DNA from: a virus
Virus record (IMG/VR): IMGVR_UViG_3300025082_000062
Span: 1 to 26,040 of that record
Strand: one strand, 5' to 3'
DNA length: 26,040 bases
Part shown: positions 2,641-22,895 of the stretch, one piece after another
Position numbering within the stretch: position 1 is the first letter of the stretch
How the letters are laid out: each line of letters opens with the position of its first letter
Notes under the pieces: generated by a model
Database searches by the model: none
Told to the model about the DNA's origin: nothing
The model's input: only the letters and a program-made list of their open reading frames with translations
Made by a program: the position numbers and the translations under genes

Positions 2641-3213
2641 ATGCCATTTTGGACCAGCGCTTTATCAGAGCCTAAACGAGCACATCGCTTTATCTTGGAA
2701 ATCCCAGGACTTGTGAATGCTGAGCAAAAGTTTACGTATGCTACTTACCTTGCAAAGTCGGTCACAAAGCCCGGCTACACTGTGGGACAGTCGCCCCATA
2801 AGTTTTTGGGCAACACTTATTACTATCCTGGCTCGGTCGAGTGGAACACAGTAACAGCTACCATTGTAAACGCAGTCAATCCTGACAGCAACCAGCTTCT
2901 CCTTAACGCCCTGACGGGAATGGGATATTTGGACCCCAATAAACAAGAAGAGATTTTCAATTCTGGTCATGCCCCGGGTACTGTTAATAAGGCCGACGCG
3001 CTGCGGCAGTTGGGTCTTGTCACCATTGAAGAAGTTAATGGTGAGGGCGGTACTGTTGGTACGTGGCGCTTAGAGAATGCCTTTGTGACCAACGCCACTT
3101 TCGGTGATTTAAGTTATGACAATGATACGGAATTACTTAATGTTACGGTCGAAATGCGGTATGATTGGGCTAGGTACCAATCTGGTCCCGCGGTTGATGC
3201 AGCTGCTGGCTAA
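2641..3213 (+). CDS. Tail tube protein (T4 gp19-like)
   Basis: A 190-residue protein expected to form the rigid inner tube through which DNA passes. The N-terminus (M-P-F-W-T-S, then K-R-A-H-R-F-I-L-E-I) and the central segments about sampling a residue shift near P-G-Y-T-V are typical of the gp19 tube family. The C-terminal strand L-N-V-T-V-E-M-R-Y-D-W-A-R-Y is characteristic. AAGGAG lies 10 bases upstream of the ATG. Its length and its place directly after the sheath gene fit the family. The last residues are a short Ala-rich tail. Confidence 0.88.
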   Translation: MPFWTSALSEPKRAHRFILEIPGLVNAEQKFTYATYLAKSVTKPGYTVGQSPHKFLGNTYYYPGSVEWNTVTATIVNAVNPDSNQLLLNALTGMGYLDPNKQEEIFNSGHAPGTVNKADALRQLGLVTIEEVNGEGGTVGTWRLENAFVTNATFGDLSYDNDTELLNVTVEMRYDWARYQSGPAVDAAAG

Positions 3214-3248: not shown

Positions 3249-4103
3249 ATGGCTAGAAAAAGAAACTCAGAGCGGTTTGCAGCGCCAACCCCTGAAGATA
3301 CGTCTGCGACTCCCGCAGCAGTAACAACAAATGATATTTTTTCGTTTGTAACCCCCACCGAATTCGTGGATCTCCCCAGCAAGGGGCGTTTCTATACAGG
3401 CGACAGCCCCCTCGCGGGAATCGAGAGTATTGAAATTCGACACATGACGGCAAAAGAGGAAGATATCCTCACCAGCGAAGCGCTCCTTCGTAAGGGACTA
3501 GCTCTCGATAGGATGTTACAATCTCTATTGACTGATAAAACGGTTGACCTTGATGATTTTTTGATCGGTGATAAAAATGCACTAGTTGTAGCCGCACGTA
3601 TTACTGGTTTTGGATCAGATTATGTAACACAGGTAAGCTGTCCCAGCTGTGCTAGAGTTAATGAAACATCTTTTGATTTGGAAGAGTTAAGTTTGTATTA
3701 CGCGGACACAGTTCCCGACGAAGTGGAGACGACCGACTCCGGTACCTTTACGTTCACGCTGCCTACAACCGGAGTTACTGTAGAAGTTTGTTTGCTGACC
3801 TCCGGAGAAGAGAAAAGATTGTCAGCTTCTGTGGAGAAAAAGAAGAAACTAAATCTCCCTGATTCACGTAGCACTGACTTGCTTAAAGCCGTCATTACTT
3901 CACTCAATGGCGTAACAGATCTTAGTATGATCGCGCGCTTTGTGGATTTAATGCCTGCTCGCGACTCTCGCCATTTAAGACAGGTGTATGAAATTTTGAA
4001 GCCTGACGTAGACATGAGCCATGAATTCACATGCGAGACATGCTCCTACGGTGGAAAGGTGGTAATGCCGTTAACGGCAGAGTTTTTTTGGCCTACCACC
4101 TGA
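3249..4103 (+). CDS. T4 gp26-like baseplate hub / tail assembly chaperone, zinc-ribbon type
   Basis: A 284-residue protein resembling the T4 baseplate family that includes gp26. Visible signs are the V-D-L-P-S-K-G-R-F-Y motif near residues 37-46, the following M-T-A-K-E-E-D-I-L segment, and two CxxC pairs (C131/C134 and C262/C265) that probably bind one zinc ion. T4 gp26 is needed for hub and tail assembly. Here the gene lies between tube and tape measure, the usual place of tail-assembly chaperones. The 3' end carries a seven-T run (4083-4089) followed within 12 bases by the stop, and the +1 frame continues into a conserved-looking extension, so the protein may be made in a short and a long form. 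The domain family is fairly clear; the chaperone role is inference. Confidence 0.72.
   Translation: MARKRNSERFAAPTPEDTSATPAAVTTNDIFSFVTPTEFVDLPSKGRFYTGDSPLAGIESIEIRHMTAKEEDILTSEALLRKGLALDRMLQSLLTDKTVDLDDFLIGDKNALVVAARITGFGSDYVTQVSCPSCARVNETSFDLEELSLYYADTVPDEVETTDSGTFTFTLPTTGVTVEVCLLTSGEEKRLSASVEKKKKLNLPDSRSTDLLKAVITSLNGVTDLSMIARFVDLMPARDSRHLRQVYEILKPDVDMSHEFTCETCSYGGKVVMPLTAEFFWPTT
4058..4100 (+). promoter_or_regulatory. Candidate +1 ribosomal frameshift element
   Basis: The seven-T run at 4083-4089 is read as TTT TTT TGG in the gp26-like frame. Sliding the P-site tRNA from TTT (4086-4088) to TTT (4087-4089) keeps perfect pairing and makes GGC (4090) the next codon, entering the +1 frame. 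A hairpin (TGCCG, loop TTAA, CGGCA; 4066-4079) ends three bases before the run. A second pair of arms, GGTGGTA (4058-4064) and TACCACC (4094-4100), encloses both hairpin and slip site. The geometry suggests recoding, but whether it functions is untested. Confidence 0.5.
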
Positions 4104-4275
4104 TTATCAAGCAGAAGTTTATGAAGAGCTATTCGTGCTCAAGCACCATGGAAGCTGGTCATTTGTGGAAGCGTATAACCTCCCCGTCCAGCTGCGCCGT
4201 TGGTTCGTCGAAAGACTAATTAAAGAATACAAGCAACAAAACGAACAAGCCAAGCAAGCATATGAACGCAAATAG
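4090..4275 (+). CDS. +1-frame C-terminal extension of the gp26-like protein (chaperone T-domain-like)
   Basis: This frame encodes 61 residues starting G-L-P-P-D-Y-Q-A-E and containing S-W-S-F-V-E-A-Y-N-L-P-V-Q-L-R-R-W-F, followed by a charged helix ending in Y-E-R-K. The sequence looks like a real, conserved domain. Yet the frame has a stop at 4072 and no ATG, GTG or TTG before GTG 4135, which would remove the first 15 residues. The simplest reading is translation as a fusion (280 + 61 residues) after a +1 shift at the T-run. Alternatives are a separate 46-residue product from GTG 4135, which has a weak GAAGAG upstream, or a one-base sequencing error in the homopolymer. The location matches the frameshifted G/GT-type chaperones known from lambda and other tailed phages. 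Confidence 0.62.
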   Translation, partial: GLPPDYQAEVYEELFVLKHHGSWSFVEAYNLPVQLRRWFVERLIKEYKQQNEQAKQAYERK

Positions 4276-4324: not shown

Positions 4325-4648
4325 ATGTCAAAAACGATTCATATTGATTTAAACCATAAAAATAATACTTACCTTACGGAAGATGTTACAAGCCAATTTG
4401 CTAATGACATCTATATGCTTATGCAGAGCTTGTACGCAGGTGATGCCCCCGACATAAAAGTATCAGTGGGGGGCAATCCTGCGCAGATTACTGCTTTTTT
4501 CACCGCCCTGAAGCGTGAAAAGCGATATATGGATTCCTATGTAAAACATGGTCTTAATGATGCCCAGACCATGTATAGTGAGTATCAGCTTCAGGATGCA
4601 GTTCGCCAATTTGAGTTTGAAACCGGCTTAAAATGGCCGTTTAAGTAG
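4325..4648 (+). CDS. Small tail-module protein, unknown function
   Basis: A 107-residue soluble protein starting M-S-K-T-I-H-I-D-L-N and ending E-F-E-T-G-L-K-W-P-F-K. I see no known motif, membrane segment or signal. It is mostly helical in pattern (S-Q-F-A-N-D-I-Y-M-L-M, then T-A-F-F-T-A-L-K-R-E-K-R-Y). GAGG at 4311-4314 is a plausible ribosome site. It sits 13 bases before the tape measure gene and is probably co-translated with it. A small tail-assembly or baseplate-hub helper is possible from position only. Confidence 0.7.
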   Translation: MSKTIHIDLNHKNNTYLTEDVTSQFANDIYMLMQSLYAGDAPDIKVSVGGNPAQITAFFTALKREKRYMDSYVKHGLNDAQTMYSEYQLQDAVRQFEFETGLKWPFK

Positions 4649-4661
4649 GGGTAAATTTTAA

Positions 4662-6932
4662 ATGGCCGAACTTACCGACGCAACAGTCCAAAATCTTAAT
4701 AAGCTGCTCCAGCGCTTGGAGGAGTCGAGCAGTGGCTCATCCCCGCGCGCCGCCGGCGAGGGCACCTCTCCTCAAGCGCGCCGGAAACCACTCGGCGCCA
4801 TCGACACCGCCGACATCGACGCCCAAAGGGAAAAACTGATTGACCTTAATGAGGAACTTGCCAAAACAGACGAACTCTATTCCAATCTTACAGAAGGAAT
4901 AAGCTCCAGGTACACAAAAGCACTGCAGGAGGCGACGATCGCAACCGAAAACGCGCGCCTGCAAAAACTGGAAGCCATTAAAACTGCGCAAGATGAGATA
5001 GCGGCTAACAAAGCGCTCATGGAGCTCGAAGAGGACAACGCACAACTTGTAGCCCTGCTAGCAAGCGAAAATGATAACCTTACTGCCTCCATCGTTGTTC
5101 TGAAAACAGAGGAGAAAGACCTCAATAAGACACTAACGAATACACAGAAGAGGTTAAAAGGCGAGCAAGGGCTCGCTAACCATTTTTCAGAGCTTGGAAA
5201 GAAAATCACAGGGACTGCCCTTAAGACAGGCGGATTTGGTGACAATCTGAATCAATTAGGCAAGCAATTTCGCAAGGTCAAGGCTTCGGGTGGTAGCGGA
5301 TTCAAAGCACTAGCAGCCGGCGCCGCAGATTTTGCCAAAAATCTTCCCCTGAAATTCTTTGATGCCATTGTTAATGGAACCTGGGAGCTGGCTAAAGCTC
5401 AAGACAAAGCAATTTCGGCATTTCGCAAGGCAACCGGCGCCGGCAAAGAATATAATCTTGAAATAACGCAAACGCAGCAGAGACTGCAGTATGCTGGTGT
5501 GGGTGCTGAGAAGGCTGGAAAAGGTTTCAATATTCTCTATGATAGCTTTTCGGCTTATACCCAACTGAGCGAGAGCGAACGCGGCGTCGTGTTAGATACC
5601 ACGTTGCTGCTTACCGAGCTTGGTGTAAGCGGTCAGACAACGGCTAAAATCTTTGACCAAATGAGCCGCTCCCTTGGGATGAGTGTTGAAGCATCAAACG
5701 ATGTCATGCTCAGACTGGCAGGCACCGCTAAGTCTTTAGGCGTCTCAATGAGTAAGATGGCATCCGATTTCCAGGGTGCCTTCTCAGAACTTTCTAAGTA
5801 TGGCAATGGCGCCATTGATGTGTTTGAAGGATTGGCAAAGCAGTCCAAGGCAACCGGCATTGAAGTAGGAAAACTCATGGGGATTGCCAAGCAGTTTGAT
5901 ACCTTTGATGGCGCCGCCAAATCTGTTGGTCGTCTTAACGCCCTATTGGGCGGTCCCTATCTTAACTCTATTGATATGTTGAATGCATCTGAGGCACAAC
6001 GAATTGATCTTCTGAAGTCTTCTATTGACGCATCAGGCGTACAGTTCGAGGCTATGAATCGCCACGAGAAGCAGGCAATGGCTGCAGCACTGGGAATGTC
6101 TGTCGAAGATGCGTCTCGTATCATGAAGATGTCCACCGCTGAAATGGAACTGCAGGCGCTACAACAAGAAGAATTAGCCGAACTAGCACAGAATTCTCAA
6201 GAGATAATGGATCAGCTTAAGAATGCCTTCCAGACTATGTTGGTGGATATGCGCCCCCTTATAGAAGACGTTATTGTTCCGACAGTGGAGTTCCTGGGTG
6301 AGATCGGACAGTGGTTTGGAAATGCCGAATCTGCGATGGTGCGCTTTATGAAGGTGGGGCTTCTCGCAGCTGGCGTGGCTGCTTTGATCGCAGCCCCCTT
6401 TACGGGCGGCACAAGTCTGGCAATGTGGGCTTCTGTGGCGGCCATCGGACTAGCCGCTGGCGGCATCGCTGGGGCAACATTCGGAGGCGGCGGAGGAGGA
6501 GGCGCATCTGAGCCCGGCACGCATCGACAAGATCTTGCGTTGGCTCGGGGAGGTCTGGTAAATCTGGGACCCAAGAAGAGCGCAGCGCTCAAAGCAGGCG
6601 CAAGGCGCCCGGATATGATGTTAGCTCCGGGGGGCGAAGTAGATCCCGAACCTGCGCAGGGTGGCGGAAGCTTCCTTGAGAAGCTTTATGCTGCCGTGGG
6701 ACTGAACGAACATGGACCAGAAACAGCGGTGCTCCCTTATGGTACTTATGTCACCAACGCAGCGGACACTAAAGAGTCCATTAACATGGCAACAGCTGTG
6801 GTGGCTGAACTAAAGGGTTTGCGTGAGGATATCTCGCGCGGAGGCACCCAACGAGTTATGTTGACACTCGACGATGGTCAAGAATTTGCCGCGTCTATAG
6901 TTAATGCATCGGGAATGACACCCTTTGGTTAG
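4662..6932 (+). CDS. Tape measure protein
   Basis: This protein sets tail length and occupies the tube lumen before injection. It has 756 residues. Residues 10-50 are Ser/Gly/Ala/Pro-rich and probably disordered. Residues about 45-170 form a long charged coiled-coil pattern (repeated E-K-L, E-L-A, E-E-K). A helical middle with many A-G-V-G-A-E-K-A-G-K-type segments follows, then a hydrophobic double segment at about 560-605 with a run of seven glycines behind it. The C-terminus has a small domain with H-G-P-E-T-A-V-L-P-Y-G-T, common near the ends of tape measures. Using the usual 0.15 nm per residue, the tail would be about 110 nm long (inference). It lies downstream of the tube/chaperone genes and upstream of the baseplate genes, as expected. 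Confidence 0.85.
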   Translation: MAELTDATVQNLNKLLQRLEESSSGSSPRAAGEGTSPQARRKPLGAIDTADIDAQREKLIDLNEELAKTDELYSNLTEGISSRYTKALQEATIATENARLQKLEAIKTAQDEIAANKALMELEEDNAQLVALLASENDNLTASIVVLKTEEKDLNKTLTNTQKRLKGEQGLANHFSELGKKITGTALKTGGFGDNLNQLGKQFRKVKASGGSGFKALAAGAADFAKNLPLKFFDAIVNGTWELAKAQDKAISAFRKATGAGKEYNLEITQTQQRLQYAGVGAEKAGKGFNILYDSFSAYTQLSESERGVVLDTTLLLTELGVSGQTTAKIFDQMSRSLGMSVEASNDVMLRLAGTAKSLGVSMSKMASDFQGAFSELSKYGNGAIDVFEGLAKQSKATGIEVGKLMGIAKQFDTFDGAAKSVGRLNALLGGPYLNSIDMLNASEAQRIDLLKSSIDASGVQFEAMNRHEKQAMAAALGMSVEDASRIMKMSTAEMELQALQQEELAELAQNSQEIMDQLKNAFQTMLVDMRPLIEDVIVPTVEFLGEIGQWFGNAESAMVRFMKVGLLAAGVAALIAAPFTGGTSLAMWASVAAIGLAAGGIAGATFGGGGGGGASEPGTHRQDLALARGGLVNLGPKKSAALKAGARRPDMMLAPGGEVDPEPAQGGGSFLEKLYAAVGLNEHGPETAVLPYGTYVTNAADTKESINMATAVVAELKGLREDISRGGTQRVMLTLDDGQEFAASIVNASGMTPFG

Positions 6933-14396: not shown

Positions 14397-15599
14397 GTGA
14401 AGGAAGACTCTCTGCTATTTCAGGTGCTTGATCAAAAAAGAGATTGTATTGGATATTTTGCCAACAATTCTATCAACCCCACCAAACAGATGCCCCGTTC
14501 TGGAGCCACCTGGGAGTACTCTACTCACCTTCCAGGCGATCATTATGAACTAGCACGCATTTACAGCGACGGAGCCACCCTGACAGAGGTTTGCCCCGAG
14601 GATTTGCGTGATAGCTGGGAGGAAATCAAGAAACAGCTTAGAGCGTGTCTCAAGGCTTTTAAAACATCACAACTTTCTTTGGATGAAAACTGCTTTTATG
14701 ATGTGGTTCCAGAATTCTTCCTGTATCAATATCTTGAGGCCAAAAATAAGATCACTAAGCACGTTTTGGAGACCCACCCGAAACCAGAGAACTATGACTG
14801 CATGTACAACCTTGTGGAAATGCTCTCTAGCATCCGTTCGCAGACTGTGAGTGTCGACATCAACCCAATCAAGCATCTTTTGAGCAGTGTCCGCGGCATG
14901 AACTTTCACCGCACCCTGCAAACCGTCAATCACGTGTGCGACTATAACCCATGGGGCACGATCACAGGGCGCCTATCAACAAACCCAAACAGTTTACCCA
15001 TTCTCACGATGAACAAAGAGTTCCGCGCGTGCATTAAACCAAAGAACGACTGGCTCGTGGAGCTTGACTTTAATGCAGCAGAGTTGAGGGTGCTTCTGGC
15101 TCTCGCCGGCGTTGAACAGCCCAAGAACGACATCCATAATTGGAATGTCAAGAACGTTTTCGATGGTGAACTCAGCCGCGAAGAAGCCAAAGTGAAAACC
15201 TTCGCGTGGTTGTATTCTAATAAGGAAAACAAGGACTTAGAGAGCCTCTACAACAAGAAAATAGTCCGGGATAAGTACTGGGATGGCTTAAAAATCGAGA
15301 CAGATTATGGTAGAATAATAGAGAATGTAGACGAGCATCATGCGCTCAATTACATCGTTCAAAGCACCACAATCGATATGGTGCACGAACAGGCTTATAA
15401 AGTCTACGAGCTTTTGAAGGGGAGAAAGAGCCACATCGCATTTCTTATTCACGACGCTGTGTATATCGACCTCGCCGAAGAGGATCGCTACGAAATATTA
15501 AATTTGCTTGACACGTTCAAGAAAACGCGTTATGATATGTTCAAGGTTAACGTCTCCGCTGGAAAGAACCTCGGAGAAATGAAGGAACTTAAGTTATGA
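14397..15599 (+). CDS. Compact family A DNA polymerase (polymerase domain only)
   Basis: Replicative DNA polymerase of the Pol I/T7 type, 400 residues. Motif A is D224-F-N-A-A-E229-L-R. Motif B has R261, K265, F269 and Y273 with the same spacing as E. coli R754, K758, F762 and Y766. Motif C is H352-D353-A354, where the usual Glu after the Asp is Ala. A T-G-R-L-S-T-N-P-N-S-L motif precedes motif A. The distance from motif A to C is 129 residues against 177 in E. coli Pol I, so fingers and insertions are reduced. No 3'-5' exonuclease motifs are visible in the first 190 residues, and no separate exonuclease gene of that type is in the window. The start is GTG 14397, seven bases after the -10 box. 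A separately encoded proofreading subunit, as reported for Rhodothermus phage RM378, is possible elsewhere. Confidence 0.88.
   Translation: MKEDSLLFQVLDQKRDCIGYFANNSINPTKQMPRSGATWEYSTHLPGDHYELARIYSDGATLTEVCPEDLRDSWEEIKKQLRACLKAFKTSQLSLDENCFYDVVPEFFLYQYLEAKNKITKHVLETHPKPENYDCMYNLVEMLSSIRSQTVSVDINPIKHLLSSVRGMNFHRTLQTVNHVCDYNPWGTITGRLSTNPNSLPILTMNKEFRACIKPKNDWLVELDFNAAELRVLLALAGVEQPKNDIHNWNVKNVFDGELSREEAKVKTFAWLYSNKENKDLESLYNKKIVRDKYWDGLKIETDYGRIIENVDEHHALNYIVQSTTIDMVHEQAYKVYELLKGRKSHIAFLIHDAVYIDLAEEDRYEILNLLDTFKKTRYDMFKVNVSAGKNLGEMKELKL
15508..15536 (+). promoter_or_regulatory. Sigma70-type promoter P2 (MazG-like gene)
   Basis: TTGACA (15508-15513), 17-base spacer, TATGAT (15531-15536), lying inside the 3' end of the polymerase gene. 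The predicted start is about 50 bases before the ATG of the NTP pyrophosphohydrolase gene at 15596. Confidence 0.65.
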
Positions 15600-21929: not shown

Positions 21930-22895
21930 ATGAAAAGAGTAATGATCGTTGACGCTCTCAACGCCTATTTCAGGGCGTTTATCGTCAACCCAAGCCTGTC
22001 TACTCACGGGCAACCCATCGGGGGACTGAAGGGCTTCCTAGGCATCTTACAGAAGCTCTGTCGGGACATCAAGCCCGACACCGTGATGATCATCTGGGAT
22101 GGTCCTGGAGGAAGCCGCAAGAGGCGAGAACAAAATAAGAATTATAAGGCCGGAAGAAAGCCAATCCGCGTCAATCGGCAAACCGATATGACTGACGAGC
22201 AGCAGCGATCTAATATGGTATGGCAGCAGCTTCGATTGATTGAATATCTAAATGAACTTCCTGTCATCCAACTTCGCTTTGACGAAGTGGAGGCTGACGA
22301 TGTGATTGCTTATGCCACAGGTATGGAGCAGTTCGATGGCTGGGAGAAGGTAATAGTCTCCAGTGATAAGGATTTCCTTCAATTGTGTGACGAGGAGACG
22401 GTTCTTTTCCGCCCCATTCAGAAGAAGGTTCACACTCAAGTTAACATTGTGGAGGATTTTGATATCCATCCAAGGAACTTTGCCATGGCTCGTGCGATTG
22501 CTGGGGATCCATCCGACAACCTAGCCGGCGTACCTCGCGCCGGTCTCAAAAGTATCGCAAAAAACTTAAATTTTCTTAGAGAAGATAAAGATGTAACATT
22601 ACAGGAGATTTTCGATTGCTGCCTCCAAACTGAGTCTAAAGCTAAGTTTTTCACGAACGTTTTAGAGTATAGAGATGTAATTATAGAGAACTATAAACTC
22701 ATGCAATTATATAATCCCGCGCTCTCTTTGCAGTGCCGAGATAAGGTACACTATGCTCTCAACAATTTTGAATACGACTACAATAAGACGGAGATTATCC
22801 GCATGATGAACCAGGATGGTTTTGGAGTATTCAACTGGGACGATCTTCATGCAACAATGAACCGTATTTGCCTTGACAAAGCCCTCCAGAAGTAG
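21930..22895 (+). CDS. 5'-3' exonuclease / flap endonuclease (T4 RNase H / T5 D15-like)
   Basis: A 321-residue FEN-family nuclease that removes RNA primers and 5' flaps during lagging-strand synthesis. The acidic metal ligands are in place: D8 (V-D-A-L-N), D57 (I-I-W-D-G-P-G-G-S-R-K-R-R), E121/D123/D124 (V-E-A-D-D-V-I-A-Y), D146/D148 (S-S-D-K-D-F) and D193/D196 (G-D-P-S-D-N). The helix-hairpin-helix-like G-V-P-R-A-G-L-K-S-I-A follows. It supplies the 5' exonuclease activity missing from the compact polymerase. AGGGGA lies just before the ATG, and P5 stands 30 bases upstream. Its 3' end carries promoter P6. Confidence 0.88.
   Translation: MKRVMIVDALNAYFRAFIVNPSLSTHGQPIGGLKGFLGILQKLCRDIKPDTVMIIWDGPGGSRKRREQNKNYKAGRKPIRVNRQTDMTDEQQRSNMVWQQLRLIEYLNELPVIQLRFDEVEADDVIAYATGMEQFDGWEKVIVSSDKDFLQLCDEETVLFRPIQKKVHTQVNIVEDFDIHPRNFAMARAIAGDPSDNLAGVPRAGLKSIAKNLNFLREDKDVTLQEIFDCCLQTESKAKFFTNVLEYRDVIIENYKLMQLYNPALSLQCRDKVHYALNNFEYDYNKTEIIRMMNQDGFGVFNWDDLHATMNRICLDKALQK

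Follow-up and report, generated by a model that had tools for sequence, protein, structure and literature searches.

In T4-like phages, gp26 and gp51 are said to have been identified as tail assembly chaperones by Vladimirov, Gautam and Davidson in 2022 (Virology 566:9-15), whose abstract reportedly describes frameshifting as conserved in several T4-like groups, with T4 itself using separate genes. A 2025 paper cites that study for the poly-T −1 signals of T4-like chaperone genes (PMC12846349). In phage lambda, the G/GT chaperones are made by a −1 shift between the tail tube and tape measure genes (Xu, Hendrix & Duda, 2004), and +1 shifts in tail chaperones have been proposed for archaeal tailed viruses, namely HSTV-2 and, at TTT-CGC, the HF1 group (PMC5009743, PMC7230728). 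Published precedents thus exist for tail-chaperone frameshifting, for gp26/gp51 as the tail chaperones of T4, and for a +1 direction in tailed viruses. The locus analyzed here lies on an IMG/VR viral contig (IMGVR_UViG_3300025082_000062, positions 1 to 26,040), and the whole stretch of 26,040 bases is referred to as the window. It encodes a gp26-like tail assembly chaperone (TAC) that is very probably fused to a C-terminal domain by programmed +1 slippage from a UUU codon followed by UGG, as judged by comparison with related loci. The initial annotation had proposed this slip and had named no described case for gp26-like proteins; the latter statement was too strong, given the gp26/gp51 chaperones, the −1 poly-T sites of T4-like relatives and the archaeal +1 proposals.

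The short form of the chaperone, TAC-N (284 amino acids), is encoded in the 0 frame at positions 3249..4103 (+ strand, as are all features given here). This frame ends GAG TTT TTT TGG CCT ACC ACC TGA, with the T-run at 4083-4089 and the stop TGA at 4101..4103, 12 bases past the run as originally described. The slip site TTT TTT TGG occupies 4083..4091. The +1 frame, read from GGC 4090, encodes the 61-residue domain TAC-C (GLPPDYQAEVYEELFVLKHHGSWSFVEAYNLPVQLRRWFVERLIKEYKQQNEQAKQAYERK; 4090..4275) and ends at TAG 4273-4275. Upstream, the +1 frame is shut by TAA 4072..4074, which sets the 5' bound of the frame transition, and its earliest ATG, GTG or TTG is GTG 4135, within the domain, so that TAC-C would be reached only via the +1 shift.

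Relatives were collected by an IMG/VR protein search (80 loci, 48-100% identity) and a profile search (80 more), and the first junction set comprised 163 loci, 130 of them distinct. A later set of 208 distinct new junctions was obtained from three further scans and a scan of genome contigs; the motif was not required, and there was some overlap with the first loci. The relatives number in the hundreds and are uncultured viruses of bacteria, mostly marine. The same arrangement was found in every locus among the IMG/VR relatives that extends to the junction, and in all 163 loci YTT_TGG marks the junction of the frames (mostly TTT_TGG, seldom CTT_TGG). Among the 130 distinct junctions, the slip region reads TTTTTTTGG in 118, TTCTTTTGG in 5, TTTCTTTGG in 5 and TTCCTTTGG in 2, and the 0-frame stop is located +15, +18 or +24 from the start of the slip site in all of them. 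A YTT_T site was present in 206 of the 208 later junctions (TTT_TAC in six). The two Phe codons of the slip site have the highest codon conservation in the whole gp26-like gene. The ratio of nonsynonymous to synonymous polymorphism (pN/pS) was 0.12 in the +1 frame vs. 1.5 and 2.9 for the two remaining frames, and the +1 frame therefore evolves as protein, in keeping with the conserved domain first proposed for it. In 62/130 distinct junctions, a stop equivalent to TAA 4072-4074 closes the +1 frame eight bases 5' of the slip codons, which confines the transition to about 25 bases with YTT_TGG as the sole common element. One relative (L232) was called as '−1', an artefact of the domain pattern; its domain was found in the +1 frame. 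Site, both frames and gene position are thus kept in hundreds of relatives.

An assembly error in the homopolymer, or a pseudogene, would make the true sequence one continuous open reading frame (ORF). This was suggested only by the run of seven T in the window, and the relatives refute it: 163 contigs drawn from numerous metagenomes share the offset with the isolates RM378, Mel-JY01 and immuto, the variants TTC TTT TGG and TTT CTT TGG interrupt the run, and both frames are under purifying selection. We consider this explanation vanishingly improbable. The same variants bear on transcriptional slippage, in which the polymerase would slip on the T-run and produce mixed mRNAs. The 7-base homopolymer of the window fits such a process, although seven T are short for it; the TTCTTTTGG, TTTCTTTGG and TTCCTTTGG relatives share the frames with T runs of just 3-4, and runs broken to this length exclude the process to the extent that we regard it as extremely improbable.

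Re-pairing of the P-site tRNA after a +1 slip on YUU_U is possible in every site variant. The P-site codon was TTT in 123 and CTT in 7 of the distinct junctions; TTC was never found there, yet it makes up 25.5% of the remaining Phe codons in the gp26-like genes. These codons also discriminate against a −2 slip on the T-run, as in phage Mu, which would also reach the +1 frame but insert an additional Phe. The seven T permit UUU to re-pair two bases back, TTT is favoured at the first codon too (123/130), and Mu provides a precedent; however, a −2 slip would meet a C mismatch at the middle position in 7/130 distinct junctions (TTC_TTT_TGG, TTC_CTT_TGG), and it would tolerate the P-site TTC that never occurs. 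TTT_CTT_TGG sites fit both directions and are uninformative. The variants thus obey the rules of +1 re-pairing, as the slip on UUU before UGG would demand, and not those of −2, which we judge to be very unlikely. A canonical −1 frameshift (X_XXY_YYZ) does not describe the junction, as the window and all clade relatives except two (L249, L261) have their second ORF in the +1 frame.

The second ORF is similarly unlikely to be an independent gene, translated by reinitiation or from a start codon of its own. Such a gene would account for the strong Shine-Dalgarno (SD)-like sequence upstream, overlapping ATG starts occur in the distant phages LR756511 and Atu_ph07, and the annotation of Rhizobium phage RHph_Y68 shows two genes. 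Against this, the +1 frame is without ATG, GTG or TTG from the upstream stop to the domain in 78/130 distinct junctions, and is so in the window's own sequence group; a start at GTG 4135 in the window would cut off most of helix 1, and an independent gene leaves the conservation of YTT_T unexplained. In the +1 clade, a separate start in the window's group, a homopolymer error and a continuous ORF were looked for, and none was found.

Both parts of the predicted fusion resemble gp26/gp51-type chaperones. TAC-N matched PF12322 above the curated cut-off (E = 1.1e-9), and also phrog_150 (baseplate hub); PF12322 is matched as well by RM378, T4 gp26 and T4 gp51. The AlphaFold2 model of TAC-N (predicted local distance difference test score, pLDDT, 89.5) had the HK97 tail assembly chaperone 2ob9 as its best PDB match, a weak one (probability 0.75, E = 0.31), with the next hits at a probability of ≤0.08; among predicted viral structures, it matched the SP-15 baseplate hub and T4-like baseplate hub assembly proteins. 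TAC-C was modelled as a confident three-helix domain (pLDDT 94). In hhalign, TAC-C aligned (93% probability, E = 3e-7) with a domain that cyanophages, Aeromonas Ah1, Vibrio phi-Grn1 and Rhizobium RHph_Y68 encode after gp26 in the −1 frame. That domain corresponds to phrog_634 (baseplate hub assembly catalyst), i.e., gp51; since PF12322 is matched by both of these T4 proteins, gp51 resembles a gp26 extended by the C domain. TAC-C is a homologue of the C-terminal domain found in gp51-type chaperones, and membership in the chaperone family is well supported. A PDB sequence search with the fused-chaperone profile and the C domain gave no useful match.

The slip site is preceded by an element that the initial annotation had missed in part. 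The conserved order is an SD-like GGAGGU, a hairpin of 4-6 bp and the slip site. In the window, the SD-like element AAGGTGGTA (4056..4064, including AAGGTGG 4056-4062) pairs with the 16S anti-SD at −8.2 kcal/mol, and the 5-bp hairpin TGCCG-TTAA-CGGCA (4066..4079, arms 4066-4070/4075-4079; −7.0 kcal/mol), which had been noted, lies between it and the slip site. The upstream part that had been overlooked is the SD-like sequence ahead of this inner hairpin. To assess the element, a training set of 95 representatives (C-domain identity below 85%) and a held-out set of 99 representatives were used. Anti-SD pairing of ≤ −6 kcal/mol within 40 nucleotides (nt) 5' of the slip site was found in 89/95 training representatives vs. 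15% of control stretches, with the SD core ending at −22 (33 representatives) or −16 (43) relative to the slip codons. At the SD position, the Glu codon before Val was GAG in 63 cases and GAA in 1, vs. 46:79 elsewhere (P = 5e-19). The hairpin between the SD and the slip site was more stable than in synonymous recodings (mean z −2.7 and −3.6). In the held-out set, the SD was present in 75/99 (control 14%) and the hairpin had a mean z of −2.3 for −21..−1, with control positions near 0; for −15..−1 the mean z of −5.3 was inflated where recodings were wholly unstructured, and 51-54/99 in the strongest decile is the safer figure. As SD and hairpin were seen again in held-out relatives, the element recurs outside its discovery set.

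The inner hairpin is kept beyond the demands of the protein. Covariation in a single register was weak (284 paired cells vs. 276 ± 3 shuffled; 159 vs. 154 ± 2), and support for the hairpin comes from its stability relative to synonymous recodings, from several alternative registers and from its association with the SD (present in 124/169 with an SD vs. 6/31 without, P = 2e-8, uncorrected for relatedness). Of the two hairpins whose conservation in aligned homologues had been proposed as a check, this inner one was conserved, as were the slip site and both frames; the 7-bp outer arms (4058-4064/4094-4100) are present in the window but appear to be a chance feature, with all 7 pairs in 2/95 independent relatives and mostly 1-2 in the others. 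Downstream RNA structure gave no signal (mean z about −0.3 vs. dinucleotide shuffles and −0.5 vs. synonymous recodings). An initiation role of the SD was rejected: an ATG is often found at −18 in the 0 frame in the SD −22 group, but correctly spaced start codons do not occur regularly in the SD −16 group, which leaves the element unexplained by initiation.

Several observations weigh against a +1 shift in a gp26-type chaperone or against its stimulation by the upstream element. Similarity to the T4 gp26 sequence itself is weak, as are the HMMER matches of TAC-C to named families when taken one by one. The more distant gp26 phages LR756511 and Atu_ph07 apparently have a separate ATG instead of a shift. 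UGG is a sense codon, and slow decoding of it is not known from these hosts. A held-out subgroup (L321, L312, L318, L213, L323, L217, L341) keeps TTT_TGG with the SD and the spacer hairpin both absent (about −36..0), so neither is indispensable; their joint absence suggests that gain or loss of the two stimulatory signals is coupled. The SD-like element also lies 19-25 nt from the P-site codon vs. a published spacing of 3 nt for +1 stimulators (9-14 nt for −1) (PMC5009743). Sequence comparison shows the frames, the site and the +1 direction, and it shows both parts to be homologues of gp26/gp51-type chaperones.

We infer the occurrence of the slip, its efficiency and the role of its products in assembly as follows. 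Most ribosomes on the gp26-like gene would stop at TGA 4101 and release TAC-N. When UUU 4086-4088 is in the P site and UGG occupies the A site, some of the peptidyl-tRNA-Phe would slip one base forward to UUU 4087-4089, decoding would resume at GGC 4090, and a minor long form, TAC-NC, would be made with 61 extra residues and the junction ...E-F-F-G-L-P-P...; for the window sequence, this junction would read VVMPLTAEFF-GLPPDYQAEVYEELFVLK. By analogy with lambda gpG/gpGT, TAC-N may coat the tape measure and TAC-C may help to recruit tube subunits.

The slip may be stimulated by the upstream SD-like sequence and hairpin. A 5' stem loop near the shift site can stimulate +1 shifting in constructs (PMC5009743), and over-long SD spacing is shortened by hairpins at initiation in T4 genes 25 and 38 (PMC3014915). 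A hairpin between the SD helix and the E site could likewise shorten the over-long spacer, as a split SD of the gene 25/38 kind acting on an elongating ribosome, and/or it could zip up behind the ribosome and drive it forward. Formation of the hairpin would bring an SD at −16 to about 4-6 nt from the P site, and an SD at −22 to about 11 nt, which is arithmetic and not evidence. T4 genes 25 and 38 share the order of SD, spacer hairpin and decoding site (PMC3014915); there the hairpin positions initiation at an AUG, whereas here the decoding site is an internal slip site and the SD −16 group lacks a start codon. The RF2 gene (prfB) shares a YUU_U slip (a small number of the present relatives have CUU_U) and an upstream SD-like sequence, but in the window clade the A-site codon is the sense codon UGG, not a stop, and the SD lies 16-22 nt upstream vs. 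3 nt in RF2.

Gp26/gp51-type chaperones of T4-like phages are the closest relatives, with a shared PF12322 TAC-N, a homologous C domain and a gene placed before the tape measure gene. In cyanophages, Aeromonas Ah1, Vibrio phi-Grn1 and the Rhizobium relatives, the C domain likewise lies in a shifted frame after a poly-T. Those T4-like relatives use −1 at T_TTT_TTC/G, whereas the window clade would use +1 at YTT_TGG, and T4, unlike the window clade, makes its two forms from separate genes. In Kyanoviridae and Ah1 (−1), the SD core lies 8-10 nt before the T-run, near the published −1 spacing, with little or no structure in the spacer; relative to these, the SD of the window clade is displaced to 16 or 22 nt with a hairpin in between. 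The haloviruses share the +1 direction, a contractile-tailed virus, the TTT slip and the gene position, but have CGC in the A site where TGG is found here, and no conserved SD-hairpin has been reported there; no homologue of the window TAC-N was found in HF2. As in lambda G/GT, a conserved slippery site stands at the end of the first ORF and the second ORF has no start of its own, and the locus was correctly placed between tube (2641-3213) and tape measure (4662-6932) genes from the outset; the lambda sequence is unrelated, and its shift is −1 where that of the window clade is +1.

Among isolated phages, Mel-JY01 (of Microcystis) and RM378 carry TTT TTT TGG and the Flavobacterium phage immuto carries TTT CTT TGG, each with a +1 continuation. 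Putative +1 sites with a long continuation in the +1 frame were seen in SP-15 (TTT TTT CAC), GXN1 (TTC TTT CGT), LIS04 (TTT TTT AGT), LuckySocke (CTG TTT CAG) and LR756508 (TTT CTA). The putative UUC UUU CGU of Streptococcus phage GXN1 (end of its gp26-like ORF, 4682-4729) contains UUU_CGU, the +1 core of influenza A PA-X. GenBank records of immuto, SP-15 and Mel-JY01, which show the two parts as unrelated genes or the second part as truncated, could be corrected on this basis. In the two exceptional clade members, L249 and L261, the YTT_T site is gone (TTC_TTC_TGG), and A_AAT_TTC, a standard −1 heptamer, precedes the C domain, which is encoded in the −1 frame. Their place within the +1 clade makes them a natural reversal of frameshift direction.

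Comparison supports, at sequence level, a large new +1 variant of the tail-chaperone frameshift. A literature search, which did not take in Vladimirov et al. 2022 itself, found no publication on this +1 clade, and the conserved SD-hairpin-slip element is undescribed in the literature searched. With about 200 independent sequences, the set is among the largest natural sets of bacterial +1 programmed frameshifts at a sense codon, and its variation lets the rules of YUU_U slipping be read. As one homologous chaperone family includes −1, +1, separate genes and a +1 to −1 reversal, what sets the direction of frameshifting becomes directly testable. The cis signals proposed are an SD about 9 nt from T_TTT_TTY for −1, SD-hairpin-YUU_UGG for +1, and A_AAT_TTC for −1 again. 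That the SD-hairpin-YUU_UGG array represents a novel class of +1 stimulator in bacteria, with direction set by interchangeable cis signals in one family, is a tentative proposal that we hold slightly more doubtful than probable.

Upstream of the chaperone locus (3249-4275), the tail tube protein gene (2641..3213) was identified by phrog_4542 (tail tube, E = 3.6e-17), and downstream the tape measure protein gene (4662..6932) by phrog_167 (tape measure, E = 1.4e-6). One small ORF (4325-4648, 107 amino acids, with its own SD) intervenes before the tape measure gene and has no Pfam or PHROG family match. In genome collections, relatives of the gene (L434, L436, L438, L439, L441) were found in metagenome bins that carry the labels Flavobacteriales, Flavobacteriaceae or Winogradskyella; these bins hint at Bacteroidota hosts, binning being weak evidence. 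Elsewhere in the window, 14397-15599 encodes a family A DNA polymerase (polymerase part) that is just 400 amino acids long, with gp32-like, RecA/UvsX-like and DnaB-type helicase genes as neighbours, and a separate 5'-3' exonuclease is encoded at 21930-22895.
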